A stretch of DNA of 64,000 bases from NCBI GenBank assembly GCA_004322045.1, contig SCRN01000010.1, positions 1-64,000 of the forward strand, written 5' to 3'. This document shows positions 38,060 through 52,782 of the stretch, in pieces. Position 1 is the stretch's first letter. The number at the start of each line of letters is the position of its first letter. Origin of the DNA: Paraburkholderia sp. GTDB lineage: Bacteria; Pseudomonadota; Gammaproteobacteria; Burkholderiales; Burkholderiaceae. The position numbers were made by a program, and so were the translations under genes. The notes beneath the pieces were generated by a model that saw only the letters and a program-made list of their open reading frames with translations, did not search any database and was not told the DNA's origin.

Positions 38060-39103
38060 TTAAAAAGCACCCCTGCGCCGGGCGTGCATCTTAAAAAAGT
38101 GTTGGACTGTACCTCCACTGACGGTGAAATGAACGGTATAAGCCGTCAAAGCAGGCCTTGCTGTTTCGAGTACGGTGCGTAGCTCGCGGTAATACGCCAG
38201 CACCGCCTTTTGCTCATCGCTTTCCGACACCGTGGTTGCGGCCGTCAGAGAAATTTCGATCTCGAAGCGCCACGGTAAATGCGCCACGATGTTGCTATCG
38301 TGAACCGTAAAGTCGATGCCGTTGCGCTGGACCTCCGGACGAACGTCGTTTGAAATAACGACGGCTTTGGTGGGGTCCGGATAACTTTCGCGCACATGAA
38401 ACGCCGGCAACGCTTCGGTGTCAGTCTCGCGCACAATGAACGGCGGGCGCTCGCAATCGTTGACCGCTATTTCGCCCAACGTCACCCCATTCACCGGCTG
38501 AGCCAATGTAGGGAGAAGCGCTTCTAGCAGCCACTCCATCCCCATCGGCGTCCCGCGTGCGCGATCAAGAGCGAACGCTTTGGCGATGAGCGTGCGAGAT
38601 GTATCGATCGACCAGTTCTTATCGACGCCCAACCCGATCGTCGAACCCAGCCATTCGAAAAACGACCGCGCCCACACTTCCACCGGGGTCAACCGGTTGG
38701 GATCGTTCACATACTTCGCCAAACCGAAATAATTCGCCAGCGCATTGAAGAGCGCCGTCTTGTTCTTCTCGATTTTGACTTCCGACAGCGGCGGCATGAA
38801 CACCGATGGGTCGCTATCCGGAAACAAGAAGCTCCAACGCGGATAAAACATATTGCCGATGACGTCGGCATCGAGCAGCGCTCGTATGCCCGCACGATAG
38901 GCAACGGCGGCATCCAGGCTGCTATCGGCCTGCTCGAGATCGGCCCCATCCGCGATACCTGAGAGCAACTTCTCGAACGCCTTCAGATACAACGCGAGGA
39001 ACGGCAGCTCCCCGGAAGGCTCGGCGCTCCCATAGCACGCCGGCAGATAGTTCAGATAGCTCGATGCCACCGACGTTAGCGAGCTTTCCACTTTGTCAGT
39101 CAT
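38060..39103 (-). CDS. Phage tail protein I-like baseplate component
   Basis: 347 residues. The N-terminal half resembles gpI/Afp12-type baseplate wedge proteins (SSYLNYLPACYG, LPFLALYLKAFEKLLSGI, LTPVEVWARSFFEWLGSTIG) and the region GTPMGMEWLLEALLP is typical of tail protein I. The C-terminal 100 residues form a beta-rich domain (WRFEIEISLTAATTVSESDE) with a helix and final HFTVSGGTVQHFFKMHA. It overlaps the preceding baseplate gene by 8 bp and probably links the wedge to the fibre encoded next. Confidence 0.8.
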   Translation of the reverse strand: MTDKVESSLTSVASSYLNYLPACYGSAEPSGELPFLALYLKAFEKLLSGIADGADLEQADSSLDAAVAYRAGIRALLDADVIGNMFYPRWSFLFPDSDPSVFMPPLSEVKIEKNKTALFNALANYFGLAKYVNDPNRLTPVEVWARSFFEWLGSTIGLGVDKNWSIDTSRTLIAKAFALDRARGTPMGMEWLLEALLPTLAQPVNGVTLGEIAVNDCERPPFIVRETDTEALPAFHVRESYPDPTKAVVISNDVRPEVQRNGIDFTVHDSNIVAHLPWRFEIEISLTAATTVSESDEQKAVLAYYRELRTVLETARPALTAYTVHFTVSGGTVQHFFKMHARRRGAF

Positions 39104-40223
39104 TGCCCGGCTCCAGCACCGTGACCGACGCGGCAGAAAGGCGCGGCAGCCCCGTCTGCATCACGCCCATCGAGCCGGGGCGAAGCGGCGGCGCTTCCCA
39201 CTGCGCTGCTTTCGATTGATCGGGGCGGCGCAGCAATGCAATCTGCGGGCAAACCAACTCGATCCATTCGACTTGATCGACGCCGGGAACCGCGGCAATG
39301 ATCGGCATGAGCGTCGTCTCGTCGATGGGCGCCCCATAAGGCCAATCCCGCCCACCGTCGGTACGCACGGGCTGCAGCGCCGCCTTGAGCGCAGTCAACA
39401 CGGCTGCGGCCACTTCATCCGCCCGCTCTCGGGCAAAGCAAAGGACCTGGCACTGCACATCGACATAAAGCAGCTGCGCGTGGTTGACCGTCAACGCTGT
39501 GCCCAATAGCGTCCGCGCGGCCAGATATTGGCGCACGCCGTCGACGAGCGTGGTTTCCGCGGCTGCCTGCGCATCGTCTGTGGGCGATGTCAGCGCAATC
39601 GAAAACGTGGCATCGCCTTCGCTTCTCGGCGCGCAGTAGGCGCAGGGGCCATCGTTCACCAAAAAGAGGTCCGTCACATCGCCACGCTGCCTCGAGCATA
39701 AACGGGCGACATGCAATGGCGTCACGCCCTTTTTAGCCTTCGCGTCGAGAAAAGCGCTGACCTGGGTCGCCAGCTGCGTCAAATCTCTCGGCGTAATCGC
39801 AAGATACGGCGCGCGACGATACGTGACGACTGCATCCTGCAGTGCGGTATAGCCAAGCCGTTCCCCGCTTTCCATTTGCATGAGCGCATCTTTCAGCGCC
39901 TCGTAGGGCGGATCCTGCGAGTTCGTGTCAGCGTATTTTGCGTAGGGGAAGTCGGTAGCGTATTGGCTTTCGCTCGGTAACGACAACGCATTCGAGAGAC
40001 CGGCCACCCAACGCGCCATGTTGCGGTAGGCTTCCAGCGGCACCGCGTTAGCCGTATAGGCCGTGCCCTCGGCGATCCAAACGAGCATTTGCAGCAGCGT
40101 AATGCCCGGATCCGACGGGTTGTGGTCGGTCCAGCCGGGCGCATAGCCTGGAATCCGGCGCACCAATTGATCGAGCACCTTCTGAGCTTGCATGACATCG
40201 AGGTTGGGCAGATCGAAGCTCAT
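39096..40223 (-). CDS. Baseplate J-like wedge protein (second, 375 residues)
   Basis: The N-terminus MSFDLPNLDVMQAQKVLDQL and IPGYAPGWTDHNPSDPGITL followed by LLQMLVWIAEGTAYTANAVP are hallmark features of CIS baseplate wedge proteins related to gp6/BapJ. Middle segments (RAPYLAITPRDLTQLATQVS) and the C-terminal beta-alpha domain (ALTVNHAQLLYVDVQCQVLC) fit the J family. It overlaps the 1001-residue baseplate gene by ATGA and the tail-I gene by 8 bp, consistent with co-translation of wedge subunits. Confidence 0.85.
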   Translation of the reverse strand: MSFDLPNLDVMQAQKVLDQLVRRIPGYAPGWTDHNPSDPGITLLQMLVWIAEGTAYTANAVPLEAYRNMARWVAGLSNALSLPSESQYATDFPYAKYADTNSQDPPYEALKDALMQMESGERLGYTALQDAVVTYRRAPYLAITPRDLTQLATQVSAFLDAKAKKGVTPLHVARLCSRQRGDVTDLFLVNDGPCAYCAPRSEGDATFSIALTSPTDDAQAAAETTLVDGVRQYLAARTLLGTALTVNHAQLLYVDVQCQVLCFARERADEVAAAVLTALKAALQPVRTDGGRDWPYGAPIDETTLMPIIAAVPGVDQVEWIELVCPQIALLRRPDQSKAAQWEAPPLRPGSMGVMQTGLPRLSAASVTVLEPGND

Positions 40224-43200
40224 CGTTGCGGCGCCTCCGCGAAGCGCAGATCGATGACGCCGGCCGAAGGCGATTCATGAGCCTCGAGCGCGACGTCGCT
40301 TGTTTGCCCGCACAGCGACAGCGCCATCACCGCAGTGACCGACCGTTGGGCCCCAAGGAACGAATACACCGACATGTATCGCATCGGGTCGCCGATCGGC
40401 CACCCTCGTCTGGTGGCGCCGCCCTGCGCCGGGTGCAAAAACCGCGTCAATTGCGCGGCAATCGTGGCCTGCAAATCAGGCCATTGCGTCTTGGGCGCGT
40501 TAGTTTGCAGCAACACCGCGACATCGATACGCCTGAAAGCAGGACGCCGCGCTGTCGTGCACGCGGCGAGCGCCGGCGTGCTGCGCTGGCGAACGTAAGC
40601 AAGGACGTCGTCGAGCATCGCCATAGGCGTGAGCGGCTCCGGCTCGCTCGAGTCAGCCAATACGACAAGTTCGAGCTGCGGCCATTTGCGAATCTCGGCA
40701 GGCGTAGGCGCAGCCTCTGATCCGGCGCCTGCCGCGAGATCGTGCCATCGCACATGTTCGATCGCACGCGCCCGGCAGACGCCGGCGCTGGCTAAGCACG
40801 CCAGCGCCTCGGCATCCGCTGCACTCACGACGCGATCGTTCGCGCGCACGCGCGCCGGCCCGCTATAGGTCAAATCGTCGACACGGTCTGCGTCGGCACC
40901 GCCGCGCGCGGCCGTGGGGTTCGTCACCTGTGCGATTCCGGGCGCTGCCGTGTATAAGGCAGTCAGCGTGCCGGCCGCCACATTGCCGCCGCCCCCCTGC
41001 GTCACGGCGTAGCAACTCGCAAAGATGTTGTTTGCACCCGGCGGCGGGATCTTGCCCGTCGCGCCGTCCCCGAATACGATCGCACCGGCGAGCGGATCGA
41101 CCGCAAAAACGCGGTCATGCGGCGCGCAGCCGATAAAGCTGTCCACGCGCGTCCACGGATACGTCACCGTCTGTTGCTGCGGCTCGCTCGTCCCCAACGT
41201 CGTCGGATCGGCAGTCGCGGGTTCGACGACCGAAATCGCGACGGCATATTGCGAATCGGCGCTCACCGCAAGAAGCACTTGAGCATTACTGGGCGGGGCG
41301 GCGCTGATGTGGTTCAGCACGAATCGTTGGCCCGGTTGTCCATTGCTGGAGCCCAGCAGTTCATTTCGGTAGGTCGCTCGGTTGGAGGCGCTCACGGTAT
41401 TCGGATAAATGCCACGCAATTGGAGCGCGTGGCGCCGGCGCGGACACAACACGCGAAGCCAGCAAGCGGTTCGAGAGAAAAAGACGGCGGCTTGCATGGC
41501 GGCCGGCACAGTAAAGCTGATCGTGCCGCTGCGTGCGATACCGGTGTCGCTCACATTGATCGCGAGCGGTTGCCACGTCGCGCTCGACGTATCGAACCAT
41601 TGCCATTGGCCGACTGCACGGTAGCCGACGTGCTCCTCCTGAGGATCGACGTCGACATATAGGGTCAGTTGTTGACCAAGGCCATGCGCGAGTAGATCAG
41701 GCGCTTTCAAACCGAGGTAGAGGGATGCGCCCTCCTCGGCAAGCGGCTGATACGGCTCGATCTCTTTCGTGTGCAGTTGATCGAGTTCGAAGGCGTTATG
41801 CGCCCATATCGACGACGGCACGCCCCCGCTCTCGTATTCGATGACAAGCGAGCGCACGAACGGTGGATCGAAGCCGTTTTTCAAGTCCCCATAGTCGCCT
41901 GCACTGAGGACCGCGCGAATCCATAACCCCTGGCTGCCCGCGACTGAAGTCGGTGCGATCGCCGGGCAGGTGAAGGAGACGATCCCGCTTAACATCAGAT
42001 TGCAGGTGCTATCGACAAACCGGTAAGGATTGCCCTTTCCCGCCAGCGGCATCCACGCCGTGCCGCCCCAGTACTGCCACGTGATCTGCGCAGTGTGCAG
42101 GTTGGTTATCGGGCGCACTTCGAGATGCATCGTGATGGGCGCATTGTGCGCGGCGAATGCCGCATCCGAGCGGATACAAAAGTTGTAGTCGAGTACCGGC
42201 ACGGTATTTCCGAACGCATAGGCGCCGTTCTTCAGATCCACCAGCATGCCGTTGACGGCCGCTTGTTGCGGTAGCGCCGACAGTGCCCCAAAGTCGCACC
42301 ACACCGAATCGATCCTCGGCAGGTAGCCATTCAAGGCCGGCACTACACGCACATCGGCAGCGGGCGCGCAGACGAGCCAATCGAGCTTCGTCGTGGGACA
42401 GGACGCCACGAATGGATCGGTCATATCCAACGGACGGCCGGCCTTAGCGGAAAGCACAGCATGCACCGCAGTGACCGATTGGGCCGCAGCAATCGGCATC
42501 GTGCTGAATGCGATCGTGCAGGTGCGCTGATCGGCGGAACCCGTGACCGTAACCGATAACGGATTCAACGCGCCGTCATACCAACGCTGAAAATATTCGG
42601 GATCGAGCCGCGTACCGTTCAATACGAGCGTCATTTGACTCGCCGCGCCGCGAGGCGTGAACAGCGCGGGATCGCCGAGCAGCCAACAATGCGCGAAGGC
42701 ACACTGCATCTCGCTCGTAGCATCGCCGGGAAACGCCGGCGCCGCGTTGCCGCTTTGCCATAACGTTTGCAGATCCCCGTATCGATCCAACCGAGGCACG
42801 ACGGTCAGCACGGCGCTTAACGTCGCCGGCAACACCTGCAAGTCGCGATCGATCTCGAAGCGCACGCTCGGCGTGGACGCGTCGAGGACTGCCGTCCCCT
42901 TCGGCAGCGTGACCGGCCCTACGTTCGGCGCGAGCGAAAAGCAGATGGGCGCCGATGCGCACGCGGCCGGCCGAACCGACATATCCAAGAAGCGATACAG
43001 CGCCAACTGGCGCTGGACCGGAATTGCGTTGACTACGCTTGCAAGATCCTGACCCAACAACGAAAAAAGCTTCAGTAGGGCCAACCCCGGATCCTGAGCG
43101 ATCGCGTCGGCCGTCATCGCACCGGCATCGGGCACACCCCATTGCGGGTTGTATAACCTTGCAAGCGCCAACGCATCCTCAAAAAACGCCGCGGCTGTGC

Positions 43201-43225
43201 GCTGATCGAAAACCGGGACGCTCAT
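40220..43225 (-). CDS. Large baseplate wedge protein (Afp11/gp6-like)
   Basis: 1001 residues. N-terminal MSVPVFDQRTAAAFFEDALA and the pattern QDPGLALLKLFSLLGQDLAS resemble the N-terminal helices of Afp11-type baseplate proteins. A very long beta-rich middle contains several IgG-like or lectin-like strands. The C-terminal baseplate-J region includes VFGDGATGKIPPPGANNIFA and YAVTQGGGGNVAAGTLTALY, typical of gp6/J. It would form the inner baseplate ring with gp25 and the spike. It starts 7 bp after the gp25 gene. Confidence 0.87.
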   Translation of the reverse strand: MSVPVFDQRTAAAFFEDALALARLYNPQWGVPDAGAMTADAIAQDPGLALLKLFSLLGQDLASVVNAIPVQRQLALYRFLDMSVRPAACASAPICFSLAPNVGPVTLPKGTAVLDASTPSVRFEIDRDLQVLPATLSAVLTVVPRLDRYGDLQTLWQSGNAAPAFPGDATSEMQCAFAHCWLLGDPALFTPRGAASQMTLVLNGTRLDPEYFQRWYDGALNPLSVTVTGSADQRTCTIAFSTMPIAAAQSVTAVHAVLSAKAGRPLDMTDPFVASCPTTKLDWLVCAPAADVRVVPALNGYLPRIDSVWCDFGALSALPQQAAVNGMLVDLKNGAYAFGNTVPVLDYNFCIRSDAAFAAHNAPITMHLEVRPITNLHTAQITWQYWGGTAWMPLAGKGNPYRFVDSTCNLMLSGIVSFTCPAIAPTSVAGSQGLWIRAVLSAGDYGDLKNGFDPPFVRSLVIEYESGGVPSSIWAHNAFELDQLHTKEIEPYQPLAEEGASLYLGLKAPDLLAHGLGQQLTLYVDVDPQEEHVGYRAVGQWQWFDTSSATWQPLAINVSDTGIARSGTISFTVPAAMQAAVFFSRTACWLRVLCPRRRHALQLRGIYPNTVSASNRATYRNELLGSSNGQPGQRFVLNHISAAPPSNAQVLLAVSADSQYAVAISVVEPATADPTTLGTSEPQQQTVTYPWTRVDSFIGCAPHDRVFAVDPLAGAIVFGDGATGKIPPPGANNIFASCYAVTQGGGGNVAAGTLTALYTAAPGIAQVTNPTAARGGADADRVDDLTYSGPARVRANDRVVSAADAEALACLASAGVCRARAIEHVRWHDLAAGAGSEAAPTPAEIRKWPQLELVVLADSSEPEPLTPMAMLDDVLAYVRQRSTPALAACTTARRPAFRRIDVAVLLQTNAPKTQWPDLQATIAAQLTRFLHPAQGGATRRGWPIGDPMRYMSVYSFLGAQRSVTAVMALSLCGQTSDVALEAHESPSAGVIDLRFAEAPQR

Positions 43226-43232
43226 GGGCGGC

Positions 43233-43625
43233 TCATTTCAGGTAGAAGGGATAAACCAGGTTGCCTGCCTTATTCGTCTCCCTCACGATGTATTCGATGG
43301 TGATCGGCAACAAGGTAGGCATCCTCGGATCGATCCCTACCGTGACGCTCGGCCGATGGATGCGCGGCTCCCACGTCTGCAGCGCGGCCGTGACGTACGT
43401 TTGCGCCAACGAGCGCGTATCGCCGTTGTTCGGCGCAAAAACGAGTTCGCCAATGCGACAACCGAAAGTGGGCATGAGTACCCTTTCGCCGGGCACCGTC
43501 CGCAGAATCACCAAGATCGACTCGCGTATCTTTTGTTCGCCGGCGCTCCACTGCACACGCGCGGAAGTCGAGAGCGCAATCGGGAAGGACCATCCTCGGC
43601 CCAGGAAATCGCCGTTGGCAAGCAT
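43233..43625 (-). CDS. Baseplate wedge protein gp25/GPW (Afp9-like)
   Basis: 130 residues. Characteristic gp25/TssE-like sequence: FLGRGWSFPIAL near the start, GEQKIRESILVILRTVPGER, VLMPTFGCRIGELVFAPNNG and WEPRIHRPSVTVGIDP. This is the sheath-initiating component of contractile machines. Its ATG shares one base with the PAAR-gene stop (TGATG), so it is translationally coupled. A longer upstream frame inside the PAAR gene is ignored. Confidence 0.92.
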   Translation of the reverse strand: MLANGDFLGRGWSFPIALSTSARVQWSAGEQKIRESILVILRTVPGERVLMPTFGCRIGELVFAPNNGDTRSLAQTYVTAALQTWEPRIHRPSVTVGIDPRMPTLLPITIEYIVRETNKAGNLVYPFYLK

Positions 43626-44047
43626 CAATTGCCTCCCGGGCTGATCAAGCCGATGCAGACGTTCACCGGATTGCGAACCTCTACTTGTGGAGCGGGCGAT
43701 TGCGGAACTTCCGTGCATGTGCTGCACGGATCGCCTGCCTTCGCCACTTTTTTGCCGTTGACTTTTACGTTGACGCTACATGACGTGATTTCGCCTATGT
43801 TCGAAGGCGCAGACACGAATGTGTAGGAGGGCAGCGGAACATGCACGATGAGGTTGTTCACCTTCGATTCGATCGTGGCCACCGGATTGCCATTGACTTT
43901 CACGTTGCTTTCCAGCGTGCCCGGATTGAAGTTCCCGTTGAAGGGACATTCCTGCGGTTGCGTCGCACCCGTTATCGTGTTGATGATCGTATGCGTGTCC
44001 ATCACCGGCCCTATCCCGTCGCCTGCCTTCGCTATTCGCTGTCCCAT
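43625..44047 (-). CDS. PAAR-like spike tip protein
   Basis: 140 residues with two PAAR-type halves (QRIAKAGDGIGPVMDTHTII, then KVNGKKVAKAGDPCSTC) and beta-turn-rich strands (NVKVNGNPVATIESKV; SVNVKVNGKKVA). Six cysteines include CSTC, which could hold metal at the tip. PAAR proteins sharpen the VgrG/gp5 spike of contractile machines and may carry toxin extensions; none is present here. Its gene is 30 bp after the spike gene. Confidence 0.85.
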   Translation of the reverse strand: MGQRIAKAGDGIGPVMDTHTIINTITGATQPQECPFNGNFNPGTLESNVKVNGNPVATIESKVNNLIVHVPLPSYTFVSAPSNIGEITSCSVNVKVNGKKVAKAGDPCSTCTEVPQSPAPQVEVRNPVNVCIGLISPGGN

Positions 44048-44077: not shown

Positions 44078-44617
44078 TTACTGGGCGTTGAGGTCGATCG
44101 AACTCGCTTCGAGTTTGATGTTCTGCTGCCCCTTTATTTCCACGTTCTGCCCTTGCAAGGTCAGCGTCTTGGTGGCAGTGATCGACAGATCACCCTGGCT
44201 GACAATCGAAATTGCATCCTTGCTCGTGTCGATCTTCACGACATTTCCTTTCTCGTCCGTGATCTCGATCGATGGCTGCTCGGAATCGTCAAGCGTGATC
44301 TTCTTCTTGCCGTTCGTTTGGAGCACCCATACTTTCGGCTGCTTTTGCTGGTCTTCGACGATGGGTTTCGCCTTGCCGTCCCACGGAAACCCGATGACAT
44401 AGCCGCAGGTGCGGTTCTCCGTCGCGAACGCCACCAACGCGGGTGCGCCCACTTGCGGCAAGGCGAACATGCCGTATCCCGGCCCGGCGAAAGGACTCAT
44501 CAATTGAAGCCAATCCGATGTCAAGCCGTCGGCGTATACGACCCGAATACGCCCGAGACCGAGCGCATCGGCAACGCTATATACCTTCGCCAATTCGATT
44601 CTCAAGTGCGCGCTCAT
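44078..44617 (-). CDS. Spike protein, gp5/VgrG C-terminal-like (baseplate assembly protein V)
   Basis: 179 residues. An OB-fold part (GLGRIRVVYADGLTSDWLQL, PFAGPGYGMFALPQVGAPAL, VAFATENRTCGYVIGFPWDG) is followed by a repetitive beta-prism-like tail (ITLDDSEQPSIEITDEKGN, VVKIDTSKDAISIVSQGDLS, TLQGQNVEIKGQQNIKLEA). Its ATG overlaps the hub stop by ATGA, so a VgrG-like polypeptide is split into two coupled genes here. Confidence 0.9.
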   Translation of the reverse strand: MSAHLRIELAKVYSVADALGLGRIRVVYADGLTSDWLQLMSPFAGPGYGMFALPQVGAPALVAFATENRTCGYVIGFPWDGKAKPIVEDQQKQPKVWVLQTNGKKKITLDDSEQPSIEITDEKGNVVKIDTSKDAISIVSQGDLSITATKTLTLQGQNVEIKGQQNIKLEASSIDLNAQ

Positions 44618-45807
44618 ATTCCGCTCCGCCTCAAGCCGAGAACCGTGCGATCTCCTTGTCGATCACGCTCGTGCGTACTCTTGACGATGTAATACCAGCC
44701 GTCGACGAACGCATTGACGCCCGTGAGGGCAACGTTGACGCCTGCCGTAGTCTGCAAATTGATATCGCGCAGCGTTGCTGTCCCCTCGAGAAAAACATTT
44801 TGCCGAAGCGTGCGTGCTGCTTGAGCGGCATAGTTGAGCGCGCCTGGGTCCCTGAGATCCGGCCGTCTCACAGTCATCGGCACCGTCGACGCAAAAGATT
44901 GGCTCGCCTGGAAGCCGGCCGTCCGCCCGGTCATTGGGTTCCGGTAATCATCCTTGTCGCAGTACCCCTTCAATTCCTCGCCCATCTTGCCGGTCGTCAC
45001 GTCATATCCCCACGATGTCACCGGCGAGCCCACCGTCGGCACACGCAAGTCGAGCGATATCGCTTCGATGTCTTGTCTGTAGACCAACGCCAACTCACCC
45101 GGGGATTTGCCCTGTATGCTCGGACGCACGATCAACTTCTCAATGCTTTTCTCCGTTTTAACCATGCACTCGTAGTTCCCCTCCTCACAACGTCTCATGA
45201 GGAAGTCGTAGTCGGTCTCGTTGTCCTGCAGCACGTAGGGATAGGCGTTGTCGGGCATATCGACCGCTGAAAGCGTCACCCCCTCTACCAGCGACACCAC
45301 CGATTCGAAAATTTGCTTGTCGGTCTGGTTGACGAACGGCGTGGTATGGGCGCCAAACCTCAGCCAATGCAACTTGTCGAAAGCAACGACGGTGAGCAGC
45401 GACGTCCCACCCGACTCGGGGCGGGCCTCGAATGTCATGCCGCTGATGTACGTCACAGGCAGTGCCGCGCCTTGAGCAGTTCCACCCAGCGCCAGATCCG
45501 AGAACTCGAGCTTGCCGCCAAATTTGAACTGTTTGAAGTCACGCTCGGTCCAGTGCTCGTCGACGGCATAGACGACCTGGCACATTGCCGGCATGTTGAT
45601 CTCTTGGACGAACACGGCCGACACTTGGGCAGCGCTCGCCGTAGGCGTGACGTGCTGCTCGTCGACGGTGACGTTGCGCAGTTCGTTCGCGTTGCGTGCG
45701 ACGCCATGCGACAAGCCCGAGCCGCCCGGCCGCGCCAGTGTGGCGCCTCCCTCGGCCGCATTGTGTGCAGTCGGAATCGTGCTACCTCCCCCGAGCAAGT
45801 CAGACAT
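44614..45807 (-). CDS. Baseplate hub protein (phage late control D / VgrG N-terminal-like)
   Basis: 397 residues. The gp27/D-like beta-domain signatures are INMPAMCQVVYAVDEHWTER early, then TYISGMTFEARPESGGTSLL, the DNETDYDFLMRRCEEGNYEC motif typical of VgrG/gpD hubs, and a C-terminal barrel with LQTTAGVNVALTGVNAFVDG. It holds the spike trimer in the baseplate. ATG 45807 overlaps the LysM gene by 8 bp; longer in-frame starts lie inside that gene. Confidence 0.9.
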   Translation of the reverse strand: MSDLLGGGSTIPTAHNAAEGGATLARPGGSGLSHGVARNANELRNVTVDEQHVTPTASAAQVSAVFVQEINMPAMCQVVYAVDEHWTERDFKQFKFGGKLEFSDLALGGTAQGAALPVTYISGMTFEARPESGGTSLLTVVAFDKLHWLRFGAHTTPFVNQTDKQIFESVVSLVEGVTLSAVDMPDNAYPYVLQDNETDYDFLMRRCEEGNYECMVKTEKSIEKLIVRPSIQGKSPGELALVYRQDIEAISLDLRVPTVGSPVTSWGYDVTTGKMGEELKGYCDKDDYRNPMTGRTAGFQASQSFASTVPMTVRRPDLRDPGALNYAAQAARTLRQNVFLEGTATLRDINLQTTAGVNVALTGVNAFVDGWYYIVKSTHERDRQGDRTVLGLRRSGI

Positions 45808-46528
45808 AGTCCGATGCTCCTGGTGGCTCGAACGTTTCGTTGTGCGTGTCCGGGATCGCGATGGTTTGTCCGATCCATGCGCGCCCCGGGAACGCGATCG
45901 GATCGTAGATACCGTTTGCATCGGCAATTAAACGCCACCGAGTGCAATCGCCCAATGCATCGTACGCGATCGAACTCAAGCGGTCCGTGGCCACGACGGT
46001 CACCAACGCGCGGCAGTTGTCGAGCCCCTGTGCCTGGATCTCCTCGGCATCGGTCAAGACCTCCGTGAAGGTCACGCTGAGCTCCGCTCTAACGGGTATG
46101 CCCGACGGCAAAAACATCGTGAACTTCTGGCCGACTTGGGTAACGATGCCCGTGAACATGCAATCCGCCCACATGAGGCGCACCGTTGGCGGCACCTTTG
46201 CCCCCTGCTTCGCAGGCCAAGGCTCGGTGAGCGCCAGAATGTCATTGGTCAATTTTCGAACGTCGCTCTGCTTTTCATAAGTGTCAAAAAACAGATCTAC
46301 CTGCAACTCGCTTGGCTGAGTTCGCGAGAACCATACCTTGTTACCCTCCCCCGTTACCCTCGCGTTCTGATTGAGCGATAACGTCTCGGGGTTGTACATC
46401 ACTTTGAGCAGGCTGTTGCTGACCTTCATCTGACTCGCATGGGAGTTCTCGATATGGATGGAGGCATGGTGCAAACTGCTCGGCAAAAGTTTGGCCAACA
46501 GGCTTGACTTGCTGTGTCGCGGCAGCAT
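45800..46528 (-). CDS. LysM-type baseplate protein (Afp7/gp53-like)
   Basis: 242 residues. Family-like core: LLKVMYNPETLSLNQNARV, WFSRTQPSELQVDLFFDTYE, KQSDVRKLTNDILALTEPW, PPTVRLMWADCMFTGIVTQV, then LSVTFTEVLTDAEEI. The C-terminus (DRLSSIAYDALGDCTRWRLI, ADANGIYDPIAFPGRAWIG) is the LysM module usual in these tube-to-baseplate connectors. Its ATG overlaps the stop of the arginine-rich gene (ATGA), so it is translated after that gene. Confidence 0.9.
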   Translation of the reverse strand: MLPRHSKSSLLAKLLPSSLHHASIHIENSHASQMKVSNSLLKVMYNPETLSLNQNARVTGEGNKVWFSRTQPSELQVDLFFDTYEKQSDVRKLTNDILALTEPWPAKQGAKVPPTVRLMWADCMFTGIVTQVGQKFTMFLPSGIPVRAELSVTFTEVLTDAEEIQAQGLDNCRALVTVVATDRLSSIAYDALGDCTRWRLIADANGIYDPIAFPGRAWIGQTIAIPDTHNETFEPPGASDYV

Positions 46529-48057
46529 CAGCGTCCTCCCGATTTGCGGTATTGTTCGGCGCTATCACGCCGGTCCGCTTCCGTCAGCACGCCATTGGCC
46601 AAGCGGCCCACCGTGCTCTGGGAAAAAAGCGTGTCTTGCAGGAGCGGAATCAGTATTCGACGCACCGCCTCGGCGACAGGCATGTTCTGCGATTGCGTGG
46701 CGGATGGCTCGCTTGAACTGGCGGGAGCCGCTCGACGCGATTCGCGCACGACGAAGGCTTGCCGCGGTGCGGCCTTTGGTTGATCCCGCAAGCCGGCCGA
46801 TCTCCCACGCTGGCGCAATACCAGCGACAACGGCTCCACGATGTGCGGACGTCTACTCGAGCCCGTGAAGGTGGTGCGGCGTCGCGAGGGCCGCTGCCGC
46901 GGCAAGACGAAGCGCTGTCGCCTTGCGGATGCCGCGCGGCGAACGAAGCGGTGTGCGAACGGGGCGGCGACGTGGTGATCGGCCCGTCGTGGTGGTTGGG
47001 CGACGCCCGTCGGCCTCGCGACGCGGGTACGACCGGTGCGAGGGACACTCGCGCGCCTCTCGATGCGGGCACGAACGGAAGGCGGGACCCCCACGGACCT
47101 CGCGACGCCAGAACGAGCCGACGTTTGCGCACGCAAAACGACAGCGGTTGCGGCTGACCGATACGCCTCATCCGATCCGATGGCAACCACGCGCGGGCGC
47201 ATCAAGCTCCCCCTCGCCGAGCGCGTTGAGCCGCGGGCACGCTCGCGCTTACTGTAACGAGGCATCATTCGCGATGACGAAACGACGGGACCGAGCGGGC
47301 GAAGATTGCGCGGGCGATCGGATCGATAGCCGCGTTCAGCGGTGGCGGCCGTCCGCCGCTGCCTCGCGTCAATGTACCGGTCAATCGGTGCTGCGAGGTT
47401 GCGACTCGCCGACCGCACCGAAAGACGGGTCGCCCGATCGCGAGCCCGCGAAACCGGCACGTCACGCATCACCACAAAGCGACGCGGTGTGCACCGGGGG
47501 TCGGGCGCCGCACGCCTGCTTTGCGCGATAAAACGCGCGCCCGCGCGAGACAGCTGTCGGTCACGAAAATCATGACGCCGCGCGCGAGATCGCAAGGCCC
47601 CCTTCGCAGCCTGCGCCGCCCGCGCCCGGGCGCGTTCGAACGGGCGGGAAGCCGTCGTGAAGCGCGTCGCGCGACTTGCCGTGAACGCCGGCGTCACCTT
47701 GGACACCCGAACCTGCGCATCCGCGGCGACGGTCATCTTTTTTTGCGCGGATGTCGGCTGTCGCCGCAATCCATCGACCCAGCGAGGCCCTTCAGCTTTT
47801 TTTCCCGCCCCCGGCTGACGCCGTAACGTCTTGCGCACGGGCCTACGGGCCGTGGACTGGGCCCTTTCCCGCATGGCTTGATGCACCTGCCCTCGCGCGG
47901 GAATTACCGCGAATACGAAATGCGGCGTGAGTTGCATCGGCCAGGGATAACGTGCCAGGCCATACGAGCGCAAGCGAAGCCGCGCAACCGATCGCCCCCA
48001 AAAGGCCTGCGCCGCGCGCGCGCGGAACAATGGGAGTCGTTTTAGGTTCCATCGCAT
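46528..48057 (-). CDS. Arginine-rich 509-residue protein of unknown function in the CIS operon
   Basis: Not recognised. By eye about one residue in five is Arg, with many Ala, Pro and Ser and very few Lys, so it should be strongly basic and largely disordered. The N-terminus (WNLKRLPLFRARAAQAFWG) and the last 50 residues (SQNMPVAEAVRRILIPLLQD) have ordinary composition. Both junctions are tight: TAG-CC-ATG after the second tube gene and ATGA into the LysM gene, which argues that the frame is real despite its odd composition. It occupies the place where phage tails encode the tape measure, after chaperone and tube genes. It may be a tape measure or a basic cargo; neither is shown. Confidence 0.68.
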   Translation of the reverse strand: MRWNLKRLPLFRARAAQAFWGRSVARLRLRSYGLARYPWPMQLTPHFVFAVIPARGQVHQAMRERAQSTARRPVRKTLRRQPGAGKKAEGPRWVDGLRRQPTSAQKKMTVAADAQVRVSKVTPAFTASRATRFTTASRPFERARARAAQAAKGALRSRARRHDFRDRQLSRAGARFIAQSRRAAPDPRCTPRRFVVMRDVPVSRARDRATRLSVRSASRNLAAPIDRYIDARQRRTAATAERGYRSDRPRNLRPLGPVVSSSRMMPRYSKRERARGSTRSARGSLMRPRVVAIGSDEAYRSAATAVVLRAQTSARSGVARSVGVPPSVRARIERRASVPRTGRTRVARPTGVAQPPRRADHHVAAPFAHRFVRRAASARRQRFVLPRQRPSRRRTTFTGSSRRPHIVEPLSLVLRQRGRSAGLRDQPKAAPRQAFVVRESRRAAPASSSEPSATQSQNMPVAEAVRRILIPLLQDTLFSQSTVGRLANGVLTEADRRDSAEQYRKSGGR

Positions 48058-48059
48058 GG

Positions 48060-48656
48060 CTAAGAGAACGACGTCACACTGAACTTCTCGATCCGATCGA
48101 TCGAAAGCGTCATGCGCTGCACGGCGAGCGCGCTTTGCGACGCATCGAAATGCACGCCCTCGAGGGCGCGCGGAAAAGCGTGATAGAAATTCCACGCCGC
48201 CGTGGGTAAGCCGGCCGAGGGCAACGTACGGAAACTCGGCGTATGGAGATCCGAGAGCAAGAAAATCGTGCCGTTCATGCGCTTCACGTTCCCCTTCATG
48301 GTGAAGCGGTACCACTCCCACATCGGATCGAGCAGCGTCAGGCCTTTCGTGAATTGCAACTCGTTGCACGTCGTCCGGCCTGGCAGCTTGTGTTCACGGT
48401 CGTTGACCCCGCCTTGGCGTACCGTATGCACCTCCGTGTTCCAACCGATGCCTTCCACACTGGCAAAGCTACCCAGCACGACCCCGAGGCTCGCCATTCC
48501 CCCCGTGACCATTGCACTCAGAAGGCTCCCCGAGCTCCGATCCGGATGCAGTATTACGCGGAAGTTGTAGGCCTTGTAGGGTTCCAACGCTAGGTTTTCG
48601 AGCGTCTTGAACCCGCTTTCAAGCTTGTCAAGCGCACCGCCGACCGAAAAGCTCAT
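48060..48656 (-). CDS. Second tail tube-like protein (Afp5 / T4 gp19 family)
   Basis: 198 residues. The gp19-type pattern is clear: YNFRVILHPDRSSGSLL, SFASVEGIGWNTEVHTVRQG, HKLPGRTTCNELQFTKGLTL, DPMWEWYRFTMKGNVKRMNG and WNFYHAFPRALEGVHFDASQ. It is longer at the N-terminus than the first tube gene. In such systems a second tube variant forms the initiating ring at the baseplate. It starts 46 bp after the chaperone frame. Confidence 0.9.
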   Translation of the reverse strand: MSFSVGGALDKLESGFKTLENLALEPYKAYNFRVILHPDRSSGSLLSAMVTGGMASLGVVLGSFASVEGIGWNTEVHTVRQGGVNDREHKLPGRTTCNELQFTKGLTLLDPMWEWYRFTMKGNVKRMNGTIFLLSDLHTPSFRTLPSAGLPTAAWNFYHAFPRALEGVHFDASQSALAVQRMTLSIDRIEKFSVTSFS

Positions 48657-48702: not shown

Positions 48703-48909
48703 TTACCCAAGCGCACGTATGTCGATACCGCGCGGTTGATTCGAATCTTCCGCTGCGTTGATCTTGTCGTTGATCTTGCTGATTTCCTCACACCACCGCC
48801 GCCGTTCCGAATGCGCCATCGATAAAATGTCCGCACGCGACCAATGAAGGTGATAAGCGATGAACGCTATCTCCTCATAAAGCCGGCCTGAAACGGCAGC
48901 GATTCTACG
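48703..48909 (-). CDS. DUF6760-like tail-assembly chaperone extension reached by -1 frameshift
   Basis: This reading frame encodes RLYEEIAFIAYHLHWSRADI then MAHSERRRWCEEISKINDK and ends at TAA 48703. It resembles the small proteins annotated DUF6760 beside CIS tube genes. No ATG, GTG, TTG or CTG occurs in frame before the conserved part, so it cannot be started independently in a normal way. It is exactly the -1 frame of the upstream gene from the GGGAAAC site, and the fusion would add 68 residues to the first 118 of that gene (186 in total). This mirrors the G/GT tail chaperones of lambda. Confidence 0.72.
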   Translation of the reverse strand, partial: RRIAAVSGRLYEEIAFIAYHLHWSRADILSMAHSERRRWCEEISKINDKINAAEDSNQPRGIDIRALG

Positions 48910-49262
48910 TTTCCCGGGAACGCCTCCTGCGATGGGCCTGGCGCCGCCGGCGCTCCCAATTCGGTATCGAGCTGATTGATCTCTTCGTAGAGTCTGAGAA
49001 GCTGGTTGTAATCAGCCATAAACAGGGTTTCCATGACAGCCGGCGTGATAACTTCGAGCGTCCCCAACTGAACGATCACTCGCGATAAAACAATGATCGG
49101 TTGATAGGCGGGGTTGGCCTGGACCCGGCTGTCCCGCATTGAAACAATCTCATCGGCGGCGGTCGCGAGTCGCATGATGCCGTTTCGATGCAAGGCCCCG
49201 TCATCGCCGCGCAACCCTACCTTCAAGGTGAATGGAAATTCAATGCTGATTGGATCTTCCAT
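48867..49262 (-). CDS. Tail-assembly chaperone-like protein (phage gp41/G-like, zero-frame product)
   Basis: 131 residues: IEFPFTLKVGLRGDDGALHR, GIMRLATAADEIVSMRDSR, NPAYQPIIVLSRVIVQLGTL, ITPAVMETLFMADYNQLLRL, then a variable linker with APAAPGPSQ. This fits the small tail-assembly proteins between tube and second tube in contractile systems. Its last 14 residues lie after the slippery site, so the zero-frame stop gives the short product and frameshifting gives the long one. It starts 39 bp after the tube gene. Confidence 0.85.
   Translation of the reverse strand: MEDPISIEFPFTLKVGLRGDDGALHRNGIMRLATAADEIVSMRDSRVQANPAYQPIIVLSRVIVQLGTLEVITPAVMETLFMADYNQLLRLYEEINQLDTELGAPAAPGPSQEAFPGNVESLPFQAGFMRR
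48909..48928 (-). promoter_or_regulatory. Programmed -1 frameshift signal (slippery heptamer with upstream SD-like stimulator)
   Basis: On the minus strand AGGAGG (48928-48923), 7 nt, then GGGAAAC (48915-48909). In the upstream gene the heptamer reads G GGA AAC, the canonical X XXY YYZ phase, at codons 117-118. Lambda G-T uses GGGAAAG and E. coli dnaX uses a similar upstream Shine-Dalgarno stimulator. There is no start codon at a suitable distance from AGGAGG, so it is unlikely to be an ordinary ribosome site. The zero frame ends 42 nt later at TAG. Confidence 0.72.
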
Positions 49263-49301: not shown

Positions 49302-49742
49302 TTACTTTTCGCGCGTCATGCGCTCGATGTGTAATTCCAGCGTCTCGATCATGACTTCCGCGCTACTCGCACTTAACGCAGTTGTCGACAAATGAGTCGG
49401 GAACGCGTTAAGGAACGTCCACTTCGCCCCGATAGAGCCGTCGGTGTCGAGCAATATGATCGTCCCGTGGCGTTTGGCATGTGCAACGGACGTCCCATAG
49501 GTTACGACCGAGGCATGCCAAAGATACAGATCGCGCGACGTCGTGATTCCCTTCTTTAGAGACACGCTGCCATACGAAGTCAGACCGGAAAATACCCGCT
49601 TGTTCGGGTACTTATCCTTCCCCTCGCGGTATTCCACCGTATCAATGGTGATATCCGGTATGGTGACCTCCGAAAATGAAGCGGTCACCTTTGGGGTAAT
49701 GTCGACGATGAAGCGAAATCCGCGAAAAGGATCTGTAGCCAT
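49302..49742 (-). CDS. Tail tube protein (Afp1 / gp19 family)
   Basis: 146 residues: DPFRGFRFIVDITPKVTASF, SEVTIPDITIDTVEYREGKD, KRVFSGLTSYGSVSLKKGIT and a C-terminal EVMIETLELHIERM. These are the strand-loop patterns of Hcp-like gp19/Afp1 tube proteins that stack as hexamers inside the sheath. It follows the sheath gene by 12 bp and is the main tube subunit; the longer gene at 48060 is the second variant. Confidence 0.93.
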   Translation of the reverse strand: MATDPFRGFRFIVDITPKVTASFSEVTIPDITIDTVEYREGKDKYPNKRVFSGLTSYGSVSLKKGITTSRDLYLWHASVVTYGTSVAHAKRHGTIILLDTDGSIGAKWTFLNAFPTHLSTTALSASSAEVMIETLELHIERMTREK

Positions 49743-49754
49743 GAAATACCTCCG

Positions 49755-51464
49755 TCAAGATCCCGAACTCGGTGCGGTGATCTGGGAAAGTCGGATCACC
49801 ACGAATTCTGCCGGGTAGAGGACAGCCAAACCTACATCAACATTGAGGATGCCCTGGGTGCGCTGTACGGGCGGATTGTTCGTTTCATCACAGGTTACAA
49901 AAAAAGCCTCTTGCGGAGAATTGCCAAACAGCGCGCCTTCATTCCAGAGCAAGCTCAAATAGGCGGATACCTCTCGAATGATCGTCGTCCACAAAAAATT
50001 ACTATTAGGTTCGAAGACGACCCATTGAAGGCCCGCCTTCAAACTCAACTCGCACTGCGTCACGAAGCGGCGAACGGCCGTATATTGCCACTCGGTGCCC
50101 ACAGCAAGCGTGCGTGCGCCGTAGATCGTGATTCCGTAGCCCGGGACGTTGCGAATGACGTTGATGCCATGAGGGTTGCATAGATCCTGGTCGCTTTCAC
50201 TGAGCCATTTTGTCATTCCCGTGGCCGTTTGGATGTGGCCGTTGACCACTCCAGCAGGCGAGAAATGCACACCTGCATTGATGTCGGTTCTTGCCATGCA
50301 GCCGGTGACGGGGCCACTGGGTGGAACGGGCACGTTCGTACCGGAAACGGGGTTGACCACGACGGGCCACGGATAGTAAAACCCAGCGTTCTCGTACGAA
50401 ACCAAGGGCGTACTGTCGTTCGTGCCGAGCACGAAATCGACGACGTTATGGTTGTTATCGACCACCTGACCGGTCGCGTTCGTACTGATTCCGGCATACG
50501 GCGCGTCTATCACGTAAAACAGGTTTTTGAGCTTGGCGTTCTGGCACGTCAGCAACACACCGGTGGTGATGACAACGCTTTTATAATCCGTGACATCCTT
50601 CCCCTTCGTGTCCACTGTCATATCCGCGACCGCTGCATCGGGCGTCGCCACTAGACTCGCATCCGACACGGACGAAAGAGCCGGCCATGCGTTTGAATAC
50701 CCCGCGAGCGTGAAATCCGTACCGCCGGTGGACAATTGGACGGGTTGACCCCTGCGAGACCCTGATTTCTGCCCCGGGGAGGCCGGCGTGACATTCGCCA
50801 CGCGGATGAATATCGACTTGGCATTGATCTGCATCGCCAACTTGCATGTGACCCCTCCCCCCAACACGCTAGCCGAGGTAAATGCGCCAAACGATTCGAG
50901 CACATAGTACTCTCCCGCCGGCTGTATCCCATTGTCAATGATGTACTGTTTAAGGAGCCTTATCGCCATGGTCGGCTTGGCGGCTTTCACATCACTCGAC
51001 TTCACCAGCACGTTGACGGAAAAATAGTTTGATGCAGTATTTGCCGGGGGTGTCGGCCCGGCATCCGTAATCGAGATATAGAGGTTCTTCCCCCACGAGC
51101 CCGCGCTCGCCGCGTTGATCGAATACGTTCCAGTCGCCGTGTCGGCTATCGTTGCGTTCCCTGCCGGCGCGAGCTGGGTCGTGGAAGTCACGCCGATGAC
51201 GTAGCACGTCGTCCCGCCTTCGGCGAAAAACTCGTAAACCGTCTTGGAAACTTCCGAGCCCCAGACATAGTCACCGTATCGGGATCGATAATCTGCCCAG
51301 CCGCTAACGAGTCGTGCGACGTTGAGGTCGCTTTGATCGAGCGTTTGAGTCGCTCCGATAAACACTGGAATCGACGTCGAAACGCTCGAAATCGTCGGGG
51401 TGCCCGGTAGTTCCTGGATATATACGCCCGGATGCGAATACGCGGTTCCGTCTGCCATGCTCAC
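49755..51464 (-). CDS. Contractile tail sheath protein
   Basis: 569 residues. N-terminal HPGVYIQELPGTPTISSVST and SIPVFIGATQ are the standard sheath start, which forms the interlocking arm. The C-terminal domain has DLCNPHGINVIRNVPGYGIT, IYGARTLA, RRFVTQCELSLKAGL and ending AVLYPAEFVVIRLSQI, all typical of CIS and phage sheaths. Only one sheath gene is present, whereas Afp/PVC particles encode three. It starts 6 bp after the upstream 208-residue gene. Confidence 0.95.
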   Translation of the reverse strand: MSMADGTAYSHPGVYIQELPGTPTISSVSTSIPVFIGATQTLDQSDLNVARLVSGWADYRSRYGDYVWGSEVSKTVYEFFAEGGTTCYVIGVTSTTQLAPAGNATIADTATGTYSINAASAGSWGKNLYISITDAGPTPPANTASNYFSVNVLVKSSDVKAAKPTMAIRLLKQYIIDNGIQPAGEYYVLESFGAFTSASVLGGGVTCKLAMQINAKSIFIRVANVTPASPGQKSGSRRGQPVQLSTGGTDFTLAGYSNAWPALSSVSDASLVATPDAAVADMTVDTKGKDVTDYKSVVITTGVLLTCQNAKLKNLFYVIDAPYAGISTNATGQVVDNNHNVVDFVLGTNDSTPLVSYENAGFYYPWPVVVNPVSGTNVPVPPSGPVTGCMARTDINAGVHFSPAGVVNGHIQTATGMTKWLSESDQDLCNPHGINVIRNVPGYGITIYGARTLAVGTEWQYTAVRRFVTQCELSLKAGLQWVVFEPNSNFLWTTIIREVSAYLSLLWNEGALFGNSPQEAFFVTCDETNNPPVQRTQGILNVDVGLAVLYPAEFVVIRLSQITAPSSGS

Positions 51465-52101: not shown

Positions 52102-52728
52102 TCACCTGGGCGGCGGAGTCTGCGGATTGGTGATGACGGCGCCGATTTCGCTCTTCAGTACGAGATCGACTGGCACGCTGGGCGCCGGTAAGTGAACCGG
52201 GGATACCGTGTAGAGTTTCGTTAAGTGATACGCCCTATTTGGAAAGCCGGCCCACAGATCTCGCAGCATATGAATGGTCGCGGGCTGAGGGACAACCGCA
52301 AGCCTGGCGTTATCACTGTCTTTTAGCGTTTGCGTGATGAAATCGGACGGTATGCGGCCACATCTGTCCAACAGTCCAACCACGCTGCCCGCAATCATTT
52401 GCTCATACTCGTACGATTGCCCGTAGACCACGAGCATATAAAGCAGATCAACCGCCAACGGCGCAGGCGTAAGCGTGAGCGACCCCAGGTTCGCCCCCTC
52501 CTGCTCAGCGGATACCGTGGGCGGAGCATTTCGCAACTCGGGATTGATTTCGATTTGGTACAGGTAAAGCGAAAGCCGGTTTTCGTTGATGCTGTCGAAA
52601 GCCGCGGGCGAATCGAACATGATTGCTTCTTCGGTGGCTACGCGTGGAACGTACGCACAAATTAAATTTCGCAGCGCGTTGCTCACGCCCGCTATGACTT
52701 GCTCAGGATCGATCGGCGGATTTGACAT
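52102..52728 (-). CDS. DUF4255 tail terminator/cap protein (Afp16-like)
   Basis: About 208 residues. The DUF4255 pattern is visible: VIAGVSNALRNLICAYVPRV, RLSLYLYQIEINPELRNAP, LTLTPAPLAVDLLYMLVVYG and YEYEQMIAGSVVGLLDRCGR. Afp16 caps tube and sheath and ends polymerisation at the measured length. It lies 4 bp from the next gene. ATG 52728 is chosen; an ATG five codons upstream is equally possible because neither has a clear ribosome site. Confidence 0.88.
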   Translation of the reverse strand: MSNPPIDPEQVIAGVSNALRNLICAYVPRVATEEAIMFDSPAAFDSINENRLSLYLYQIEINPELRNAPPTVSAEQEGANLGSLTLTPAPLAVDLLYMLVVYGQSYEYEQMIAGSVVGLLDRCGRIPSDFITQTLKDSDNARLAVVPQPATIHMLRDLWAGFPNRAYHLTKLYTVSPVHLPAPSVPVDLVLKSEIGAVITNPQTPPPR

Positions 52729-52782
52729 GGCGCGCGTTAACATTCAAGGCAATTGCTCTTAATTAAAGATCGATATAAACAT

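Follow-up and report, generated by a model that had tools for sequence, protein, structure and literature searches.

A putative lambda G/GT-type -1 frameshift joining a tail-assembly chaperone to DUF6760 in contractile injection systems of bacteria and archaea

The closest described counterparts of the gene pair reported here are tail-assembly chaperones of phages. In lambda, the short gpG is in excess over gpGT by a ratio given as 30:1 (PMC5009743). Phage P2, which has a contractile tail, uses a -1 shift on TTTTTTG to make E and E+E' products of 91 and 142 amino acids (aa); no hairpin is reported for this site, and downstream structure is called rare in phages (PMC3091744). Among the frameshifts annotated by SEA-PHAGES, 'the thousand' fivetwo motifs are all stated to be GGGGGAA (PMC10885494). 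The GeneTack cluster of phage-like tail chaperones holds 41 predicted frameshift genes from prokaryote genomes, and two HK97-type chaperone genes of bacterial genomes are reported to have frameshifted at 6 and 7% when tested (PMC3711429). We describe a gene pair of this kind in a 64,000-nt stretch of Paraburkholderia sp. (contig SCRN01000010.1, positions 1 to 64,000; hereafter the window), where the tail-assembly chaperone gene of a contractile injection system (CIS) overlaps a frame encoding the domain DUF6760 (PF20546). Judging from the sequence, a programmed -1 ribosomal frameshift very probably makes two proteins from one start.

Like lambda gpG/gpGT, the pair consists of a short chaperone adjoining a tube gene, a putative -1 shift near the 3' end and an extension that has no start of its own. 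Unlike lambda, it belongs to a contractile injection system and no phage, its extension is DUF6760, and no counterpart of the lambda tape-measure gene was identified near the chaperone in a Pfam scan of the window's frames. It shares with P2 the contractile tail and the -1 shift and differs from it in the slip sequence, which is GGGAAAC or a G-run in place of TTTTTTG, and in the hairpin found in most loci. Actinophage tail-assembly chaperones share GGGGGAA with 24 of 107 CIS loci surveyed below and differ in belonging to phages; that this is the motif of many annotated actinophage tail-chaperone frameshifts argues for frameshifting of the lambda G/GT type in CIS. The GeneTack cluster is described as similar to HK97 and of phage origin, whereas the pair described here sits in a CIS.

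In the window, the DUF6760 frame runs open from 49011 to 48703, in precisely the -1 frame of the chaperone gene (Table 1). Between its upstream stop and the LYEE motif of DUF6760 there is no ATG, GTG or TTG, and one ATC. The first-pass annotation of this DNA had proposed the startless -1 frame, the heptamer G GGA AAC in X XXY YYZ phase, products of 131 and 186 residues and an AGGAGG ahead of the heptamer; each of these agrees with the sequence and coordinates, and the shifted product computes as 118 + 68 = 186 aa against 131 aa in the zero frame. The DUF6760 frame scores 68.8 bits against PF20546 (cut-off 27). The chaperone was assigned by phrog_508 (E 2.3e-9 in the window, 4.7e-8 to 6e-4 in six relatives), and in a search with its predicted fold the HK97 chaperone was the top-ranked match, a weak one. 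As plain DNA, GGGAAAC is no more frequent in the window than expected (7 observed, 6.35 expected). In phase, GGGAAAN occurs 6 times in 17,606 codons of the other long open reading frames of the window, so that about 0.016 would be expected within the 48-codon overlap.

In the mechanism that we propose, most ribosomes would read the chaperone to its own stop and release the 131-aa product. A minority would slip back one base at G GGA AAC, with both tRNAs re-pairing (to GGG and AAA), and would continue in the -1 frame, adding the DUF6760 domain to give the 186-aa product. Short chaperone would thereby exceed fusion in a set proportion, as gpG exceeds gpGT. The analogy further suggests that the part common to both products would bind an assembly substrate (a length-determining protein, for instance) and that the DUF6760 part would recruit tube subunits. 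In most relatives, the slip would take place at G GGG GRR with a hairpin about 4-8 nt later. The occurrence and rate of slippage and the role of each product are inferred. The frames, the slip sequences, the missing starts, the covarying hairpin and their conservation are seen in the sequence itself, and a startless frame at a fixed -1 offset, with a re-pairing sequence and usually a hairpin, has the anatomy of programmed -1 frameshifting.

The window's own clade was searched with PF20546 in 61 genomes of the genus and order, the window's included; 10 had a match, 9 of them over the cut-off, and at genus level 8 of 11 genomes examined matched. A heptamer stands in phase in all nine over-cut-off loci (GGGAAAC in 6, GGGAAAG in 3; the window is L001), 21-30 nt before the DUF6760 match, and GGGAAAG is also the slip sequence of lambda. 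No NTG start lies nearby in the window or in its first eight relatives. Comparison with these eight shows both the in-phase heptamer and the absent start kept in every one; this conservation is the strong evidence for the site, and it makes a one-base sequencing error very unlikely. Extending the search to 300 genomes of the order brought in L112, with GGGAAAG in phase, and L113, with GGGGGAG. The distance from the heptamer to the LYEE codons is 33 nt in 10 of 10 GGGAAA loci. A start codon combined with no heptamer was found in none of these ten loci; the same combination was found in 6 of 47 held-out loci (see below). The lambda G/GT-like frameshift first suggested for the window is thus the best explanation after comparison of relatives. 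It had been presented as a single case; the arrangement recurs widely in both bacteria and archaea, where the slip sequences differ and an RNA hairpin, which the window's clade lacks, is usually present.

A wider survey gave 107 anchored DUF6760 loci from 12 named phyla of bacteria and archaea: 14 from plasmids (of 34 records), 80 from genomes (kept of 551, among the matches listed), three from viral contigs, L011 from another genome of the phylum and nine from the genus and order. No count includes the weak PF20546 matches L010, L012, L013 (inside proteins of more than 800 residues) and L014. Viral contigs searched with the DUF6760 of the window alone gave no relative; an alignment query gave the three. 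Searches with tblastn of DUF6760 and of the chaperone against a phage collection gave no match. Upstream of the slip, the chaperone frame, relative to which DUF6760 lies at -1, stays open over 60 codons or more in 106 of 107 loci, and 102 carry the chaperone motif in it. The exception, L028 from a Kovacikia plasmid, has only 44 open codons there and differs at conserved DUF6760 residues; it is probably a decayed copy. An in-phase slip sequence lies at the overlap in 106 of 107, the exception being L041, where the script matched an upstream decoy and the actual site reads GGGCAG. GGGGGAG (45), GGGGGAA (24) and GGGGGGA (14) are the commonest types, many of the GGGGGAG loci coming from closely related Nostocales.

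Removal of near-copies at 85% identity reduced the set to 66 loci, with GGGGGAA in 19, GGGGGAG in 14, GGGGGGA in 12, GGGGGGG in 12, GGGAAAC in 5 and GGGAAAG in 2. In the two remaining rows, L041 and L109, the rule took an earlier G-run; the site of L109 has GGGGGAA. Codon usage alone predicts GGG in 10.7 of the 59 G-run rows. The same rule applied in phase 60-270 nt upstream was satisfied at 8 of 528 places, against 65 of 66 at the junction, a count that includes the L041 decoy. In 93 of 107 loci the stretch between slip and LYEE contains no NTG, leaving the Leu codon itself aside, and in 53 of 107 (32 of 66) the DUF6760 frame has none anywhere upstream. In a quick tree of 69 rows with weak support, the GGGAAA loci fall in two places, although its well-supported branches do not require more than one origin of GGGAAA.

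In most lineages a hairpin follows the slip sequence. GYPL codons pair with EEVA codons, GGCTACCCCCTC with GAGGAGGTAGCC, with one C-A mismatch, in a stem that starts 5 nt after the heptamer in 55 of 66 loci. These 55 align without gaps over 60 nt; five Burkholderiales loci and six variants in length or sequence were left out. Pairing is kept in 91.4% of cells, against 31-60% for slid partners, and both sides have changed in 21 cells, against 5.0 in shuffles (0 of 500 as high). RNAalifold independently recovers a nearly identical stem. The loci of Methanosaeta, Bryobacteraceae and Desulforapulum show the compensatory change TAC/GTA to TAT/ATA. Codon choice in 61 loci fits the stem as well: CCC is used in 48 (14.2 expected), GTA in 45 (7.8 expected) and CTC in 32 (9.7 expected). 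Against synonymous recodings that keep the -1-frame protein, the hairpin window has a mean z of -3.66, with p<0.05 in 54 of 66 loci and p<0.01 in 47. For nine further windows along the frame, each covering 18 to 66 loci, the mean z runs from -0.65 to +0.21. A second branch, 17 loci picked by eye and drawn mostly from the actinobacterial and Chloroflexi searches, has another stem, GACGTACGCGA with TCGCGTACGTC, which is 92.6% paired with both sides changed in 4 cells against 0.4. Rfam gave no match at the gathering threshold in nine loci. Since P2 has no reported hairpin and downstream structure is called rare in phages, a hairpin kept this long in CIS is unusual.

A held-out sample was drawn by six phylum-wide Pfam-profile searches, each including its centre, together with L112 and L113. 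Matches were found in 19/296, 15/146, 16/201, 10/196, 1/149 and 4/199 genomes; centres aside, the draws gave 62 loci, of which 47 were new and non-redundant once L114, L133, L152, L171, L175 and L176 had been left out as re-finds. The slip rule, GGGG or GGGAAA in phase within a fixed stretch before LYEE, held in 40 of 47 loci against 14 of 376 upstream control places (3.7%); three of the 40 are less typical (GGGGCGA, GGGGGGC, GGGGAAA). The hairpin reached p<0.05 in 37 of 47, with a mean z of -2.80 against -0.10 for the control window. With a covariance model built on the first set, 36 of the 47 are recovered at the junction (E 0.01); apart from these there is only a partial match to L006 in 236,594 bases, and the window has none. 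The model scores sequence too, as seen in its match to the slip-less L177 (E 6.3e-7), and is no test of structure alone.

The G-runs raise the alternative that RNA polymerase slips on them and adds a base, so that a fraction of mRNAs encodes the fusion. Most relatives do carry 5-7 G in a row, and hairpins can occur at sites of transcriptional slippage. Runs of 5-6 G are short for this process, however, and there are only three G in the in-phase GGGAAAN of the window's clade, of L055 and L018 and of four haloarchaeal loci. The conserved property is the re-pairing of tRNAs, not a long homopolymer. That GGGAAAN replaces the G-run of other loci in the window's clade, in haloarchaea and in an Armatimonadetes locus favors ribosomal slippage over a homopolymer effect, and we give transcriptional slippage almost no credence. 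The four haloarchaeal loci (L165-L168) all have GGGAAAT in phase, two of them with no near NTG. In L018, from Haloferax, an in-phase GGGAAAC coexists with an ATGA start, so that both routes may operate there; its chaperone also has a weak Mu gp41 match (E 0.15). These haloarchaeal sites (GGGAAAC or GGGAAAT) belong to CIS loci, whereas HCTV-1, -2 and -5, haloarchaeal viruses that we count among the closest known systems, are not CIS.

Several observations weigh against a ribosomal frameshift as described. An NTG does lie between slip and LYEE in 14 of 107 loci (11 of 66), where both routes are possible. L041 and L177 have neither a slip sequence nor a near NTG. The loci share ancestry, and the counts are not independent events. 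On GGGGGAA and GGGGGAG, the second tRNA re-pairs poorly unless G:U pairs are allowed. Seven held-out loci lack the slip (L126, L128, L129, L131, L132, L169, L177), and in the first six an ATG or GTG overlaps the chaperone stop. The window's own clade combines a more canonical heptamer than other lineages with no compact hairpin (z -1.65 to +1.50, p<0.05 in 0 of 10). Among 24 window sizes and offsets in the ten clade loci, the best (a 120-nt stretch beginning 12 nt past the heptamer's first base, under a null that keeps only the -1-frame protein) gave a mean z of -2.27, which is weak because it was found after 24 tries. The hairpin covariance model matched only L006 of the ten, partially (E 9.5e-4). 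The AGGAGG is likewise no clear element. Stimulation by a Shine-Dalgarno sequence, as in dnaX, had been suggested for it; the motif is present but not clearly in excess of protein constraint, since synonymous recoding gives p 0.25 in the window and p<0.05 in 1 of 10 clade loci. The mean z is -1.09 in these ten and -1.12 in 57 G-run loci (4 at p<0.05), which weakly suggests a tilt toward such sequences upstream. The spacing from Shine-Dalgarno sequence to slip in dnaX is about 10. In many other lineages, a zinc-ribbon-like CPxC stretch lies just before the slip in the chaperone C-terminus (L015, L022, L034); it is nearly invariant in alignment A4 and missing from the window's clade.

The slip-less loci bear most directly on another explanation, that DUF6760 is a separate small protein made from a coupled start at the chaperone stop, or sometimes from a rare ATA, ATT or ATC, with the G-run as its Shine-Dalgarno sequence. 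ATGA and GTGA overlaps in several lineages fit this, and an overlap of that form necessarily puts the second gene in the -1 frame; so do the ATG or GTG at the stop in six of the seven slip-less held-out loci, the ATC that the window has in place, and the DUF6760 starts annotated as ATA in Nostoc (L017) and ATT in Pseudanabaena (L023). Set against it are the many surveyed loci with no NTG between slip and LYEE; L002-L005 of the window's clade, which lack even CTG, ATA, ATT and ATC in the 30 nt before LYEE; and Embleya L019 and L085, where 31 nt separate the slip from the zero-frame stop, a distance too great for coupling at the slip. On the weakly supported tree, NTG presence requires 9 changes; one would expect a hairpin surrounding the start to impede initiation; and G GGA AAC is left with no role. 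We therefore hold a separate protein to be unlikely, and prefer the -1 frameshift. A coupled start may nevertheless make DUF6760 alone, or act beside the shift, in some lineages. The six slip-less loci with ATG or GTG at the stop indicate that a coupled start can replace the shift, and their arrangement is consistent with a possible switch from fusion to separate DUF6760 protein. Some NTG lies in the 33 nt before LYEE in 27 of 47 held-out loci; in the actinobacterial draw the commonest is a GTG or ATG overlapping the stop (13 of 15), so that a coupled start may act beside the shift there. Of six annotated plasmid records, three start DUF6760 at ATA, ATT or an internal TTG and one omits it; the internal TTG, in L022, is the conserved Leu codon. 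The starts in L017, L023 and L022 are signs that annotation could not find one.

A natural counterpart of the shifted product may exist in the same order. L010:1441-2319 (-) encodes, in a single frame, a protein that contains cysteine pairs and whose N-terminus is T4_baseplate-like and C-terminus DUF6760-like, both scoring under the cut-offs (24.0 bits for PF12322, cut-off 24.5; 20.5 bits for DUF6760, cut-off 27). Like the shifted product, it has a DUF6760-like domain behind a cysteine pair, but in one reading frame with no shift; its N-terminal part was likened to PF12322, whereas phrog_508 was used for the window chaperone. It is possibly a natural fusion of the kind that the frameshift would make.

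We also considered whether DUF6760 is the spike plug (Afp6/Alg6/Cis6) and the fusion a by-product. Both are small proteins of CIS operons, and Alg6 is stated to be needed for particle assembly (PMC8894135). DUF6760 is predicted to fold into three helices, however, and Alg6 is described as a strand plus one helix (PMC8894135). A fold search with DUF6760 gave no match, and a sequence search of the PDB with chaperone and DUF6760 gave nothing meaningful, the best match of DUF6760 being a ribosomal protein (E 1.1). Cis6 and Alg6 are modelled in published structures, and a plug would be expected to match if their chains are in the PDB set. DUF6760 is also located before the second tube gene. A plug seems highly improbable to us.

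The surroundings form a cluster of the extracellular CIS type, with sheath, tube, CIS tube, hub/spike, PAAR, baseplate J and terminator genes together, as called by a Pfam scan of 18 window frames (Table 1). The order is tube gene, chaperone/DUF6760, second tube-like gene and then a long Arg/Ala-rich frame (46528-48369, minus strand) with no Pfam match, which lies partly under the second tube gene and reaches the CIS tube gene; it may be an assembly or length factor, or the listed frame may not be a gene. A 928-aa frame (35099-37885, minus strand) lying downstream of the baseplate genes has a borderline match to bactofilin (27.8 bits, cut-off 27.9).

Table 1. Positions in the window of the chaperone/DUF6760 overlap and of the injection-system genes around it.
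Feature	Position	Strand	Basis or remark
Tail-assembly chaperone gene	49262-48867	(-)	phrog_508; zero-frame product 131 aa
Zero-frame stop TAG of chaperone	48869-48867	(-)	
Candidate slippery heptamer G GGA AAC	48915-48909	(-)	X XXY YYZ phase
DUF6760 part, -1 frame	48703..48909	(-)	68 residues + stop, downstream of slip
AGGAGG, possible Shine-Dalgarno-like stimulator	48928-48923	(-)	7 nt before heptamer
Tail tube protein, gp19-like	49302..49742	(-)	PF06841 E 1.2e-33; directly upstream of chaperone
Tail sheath protein	49755..51464	(-)	PF04984 + PF17482
Second gp19-like tube protein	48060..48656	(-)	PF06841 E 1.3e-23; directly downstream of DUF6760
CIS tube protein	45800..46528	(-)	PF19266 E 1e-22
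Baseplate hub, GPD, start uncertain	44614..45927	(-)	PF05954 E 1.4e-7
Phage_base_V spike part	44078..44617	(-)	PF04717 E 1.2e-12
PAAR spike tip	43625..44047	(-)	PF05488 E 4e-7
Baseplate_J-like gene	40220-43225	(-)	PF04865 21.3 bits, just over cut-off 21.1
Baseplate_J-like gene	39096-40223	(-)	PF04865 18.9 bits, under cut-off 21.1
Tail_P2_I baseplate protein	38060..39103	(-)	PF09684 E 1.3e-6
Tail terminator, Pvc16_N	52102..52743	(-)	PF14065 E 3.8e-27

No report of a frameshift in a CIS chaperone was found among the open-access titles and abstract openings listed, so that an earlier description is possible, and the word 'frameshift' does not occur in the main text of the sampled open-access CIS papers and reviews. 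As far as these literature searches reach, a lambda G/GT-type frameshift is new for CIS, and it is probably ancestral to a large branch of them. We consider it likely that the -1-frameshift chaperone fusion is an ancestral and general component of this branch in bacteria and archaea, that it persisted through replacement of its slip sequences (GGGGGRR, GGGAAAN) and hairpin sequences and was occasionally exchanged for a coupled start, that the ratio of short form to fusion would set how the particles are assembled and perhaps their length, and that annotation misses one protein. If this is true, an assembly factor has been missing from the parts list of a large CIS group, and frameshifting, usually seen as a phage trick, has been kept in host-borne machines of bacteria and archaea. 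Taken together, the loci offer a natural series: the event has persisted through exchanges of slip sequence and hairpin. They also open the control of tube assembly and length to direct test. The recurrence of the slip signal in related machines points to an overlooked step in the building of CIS.
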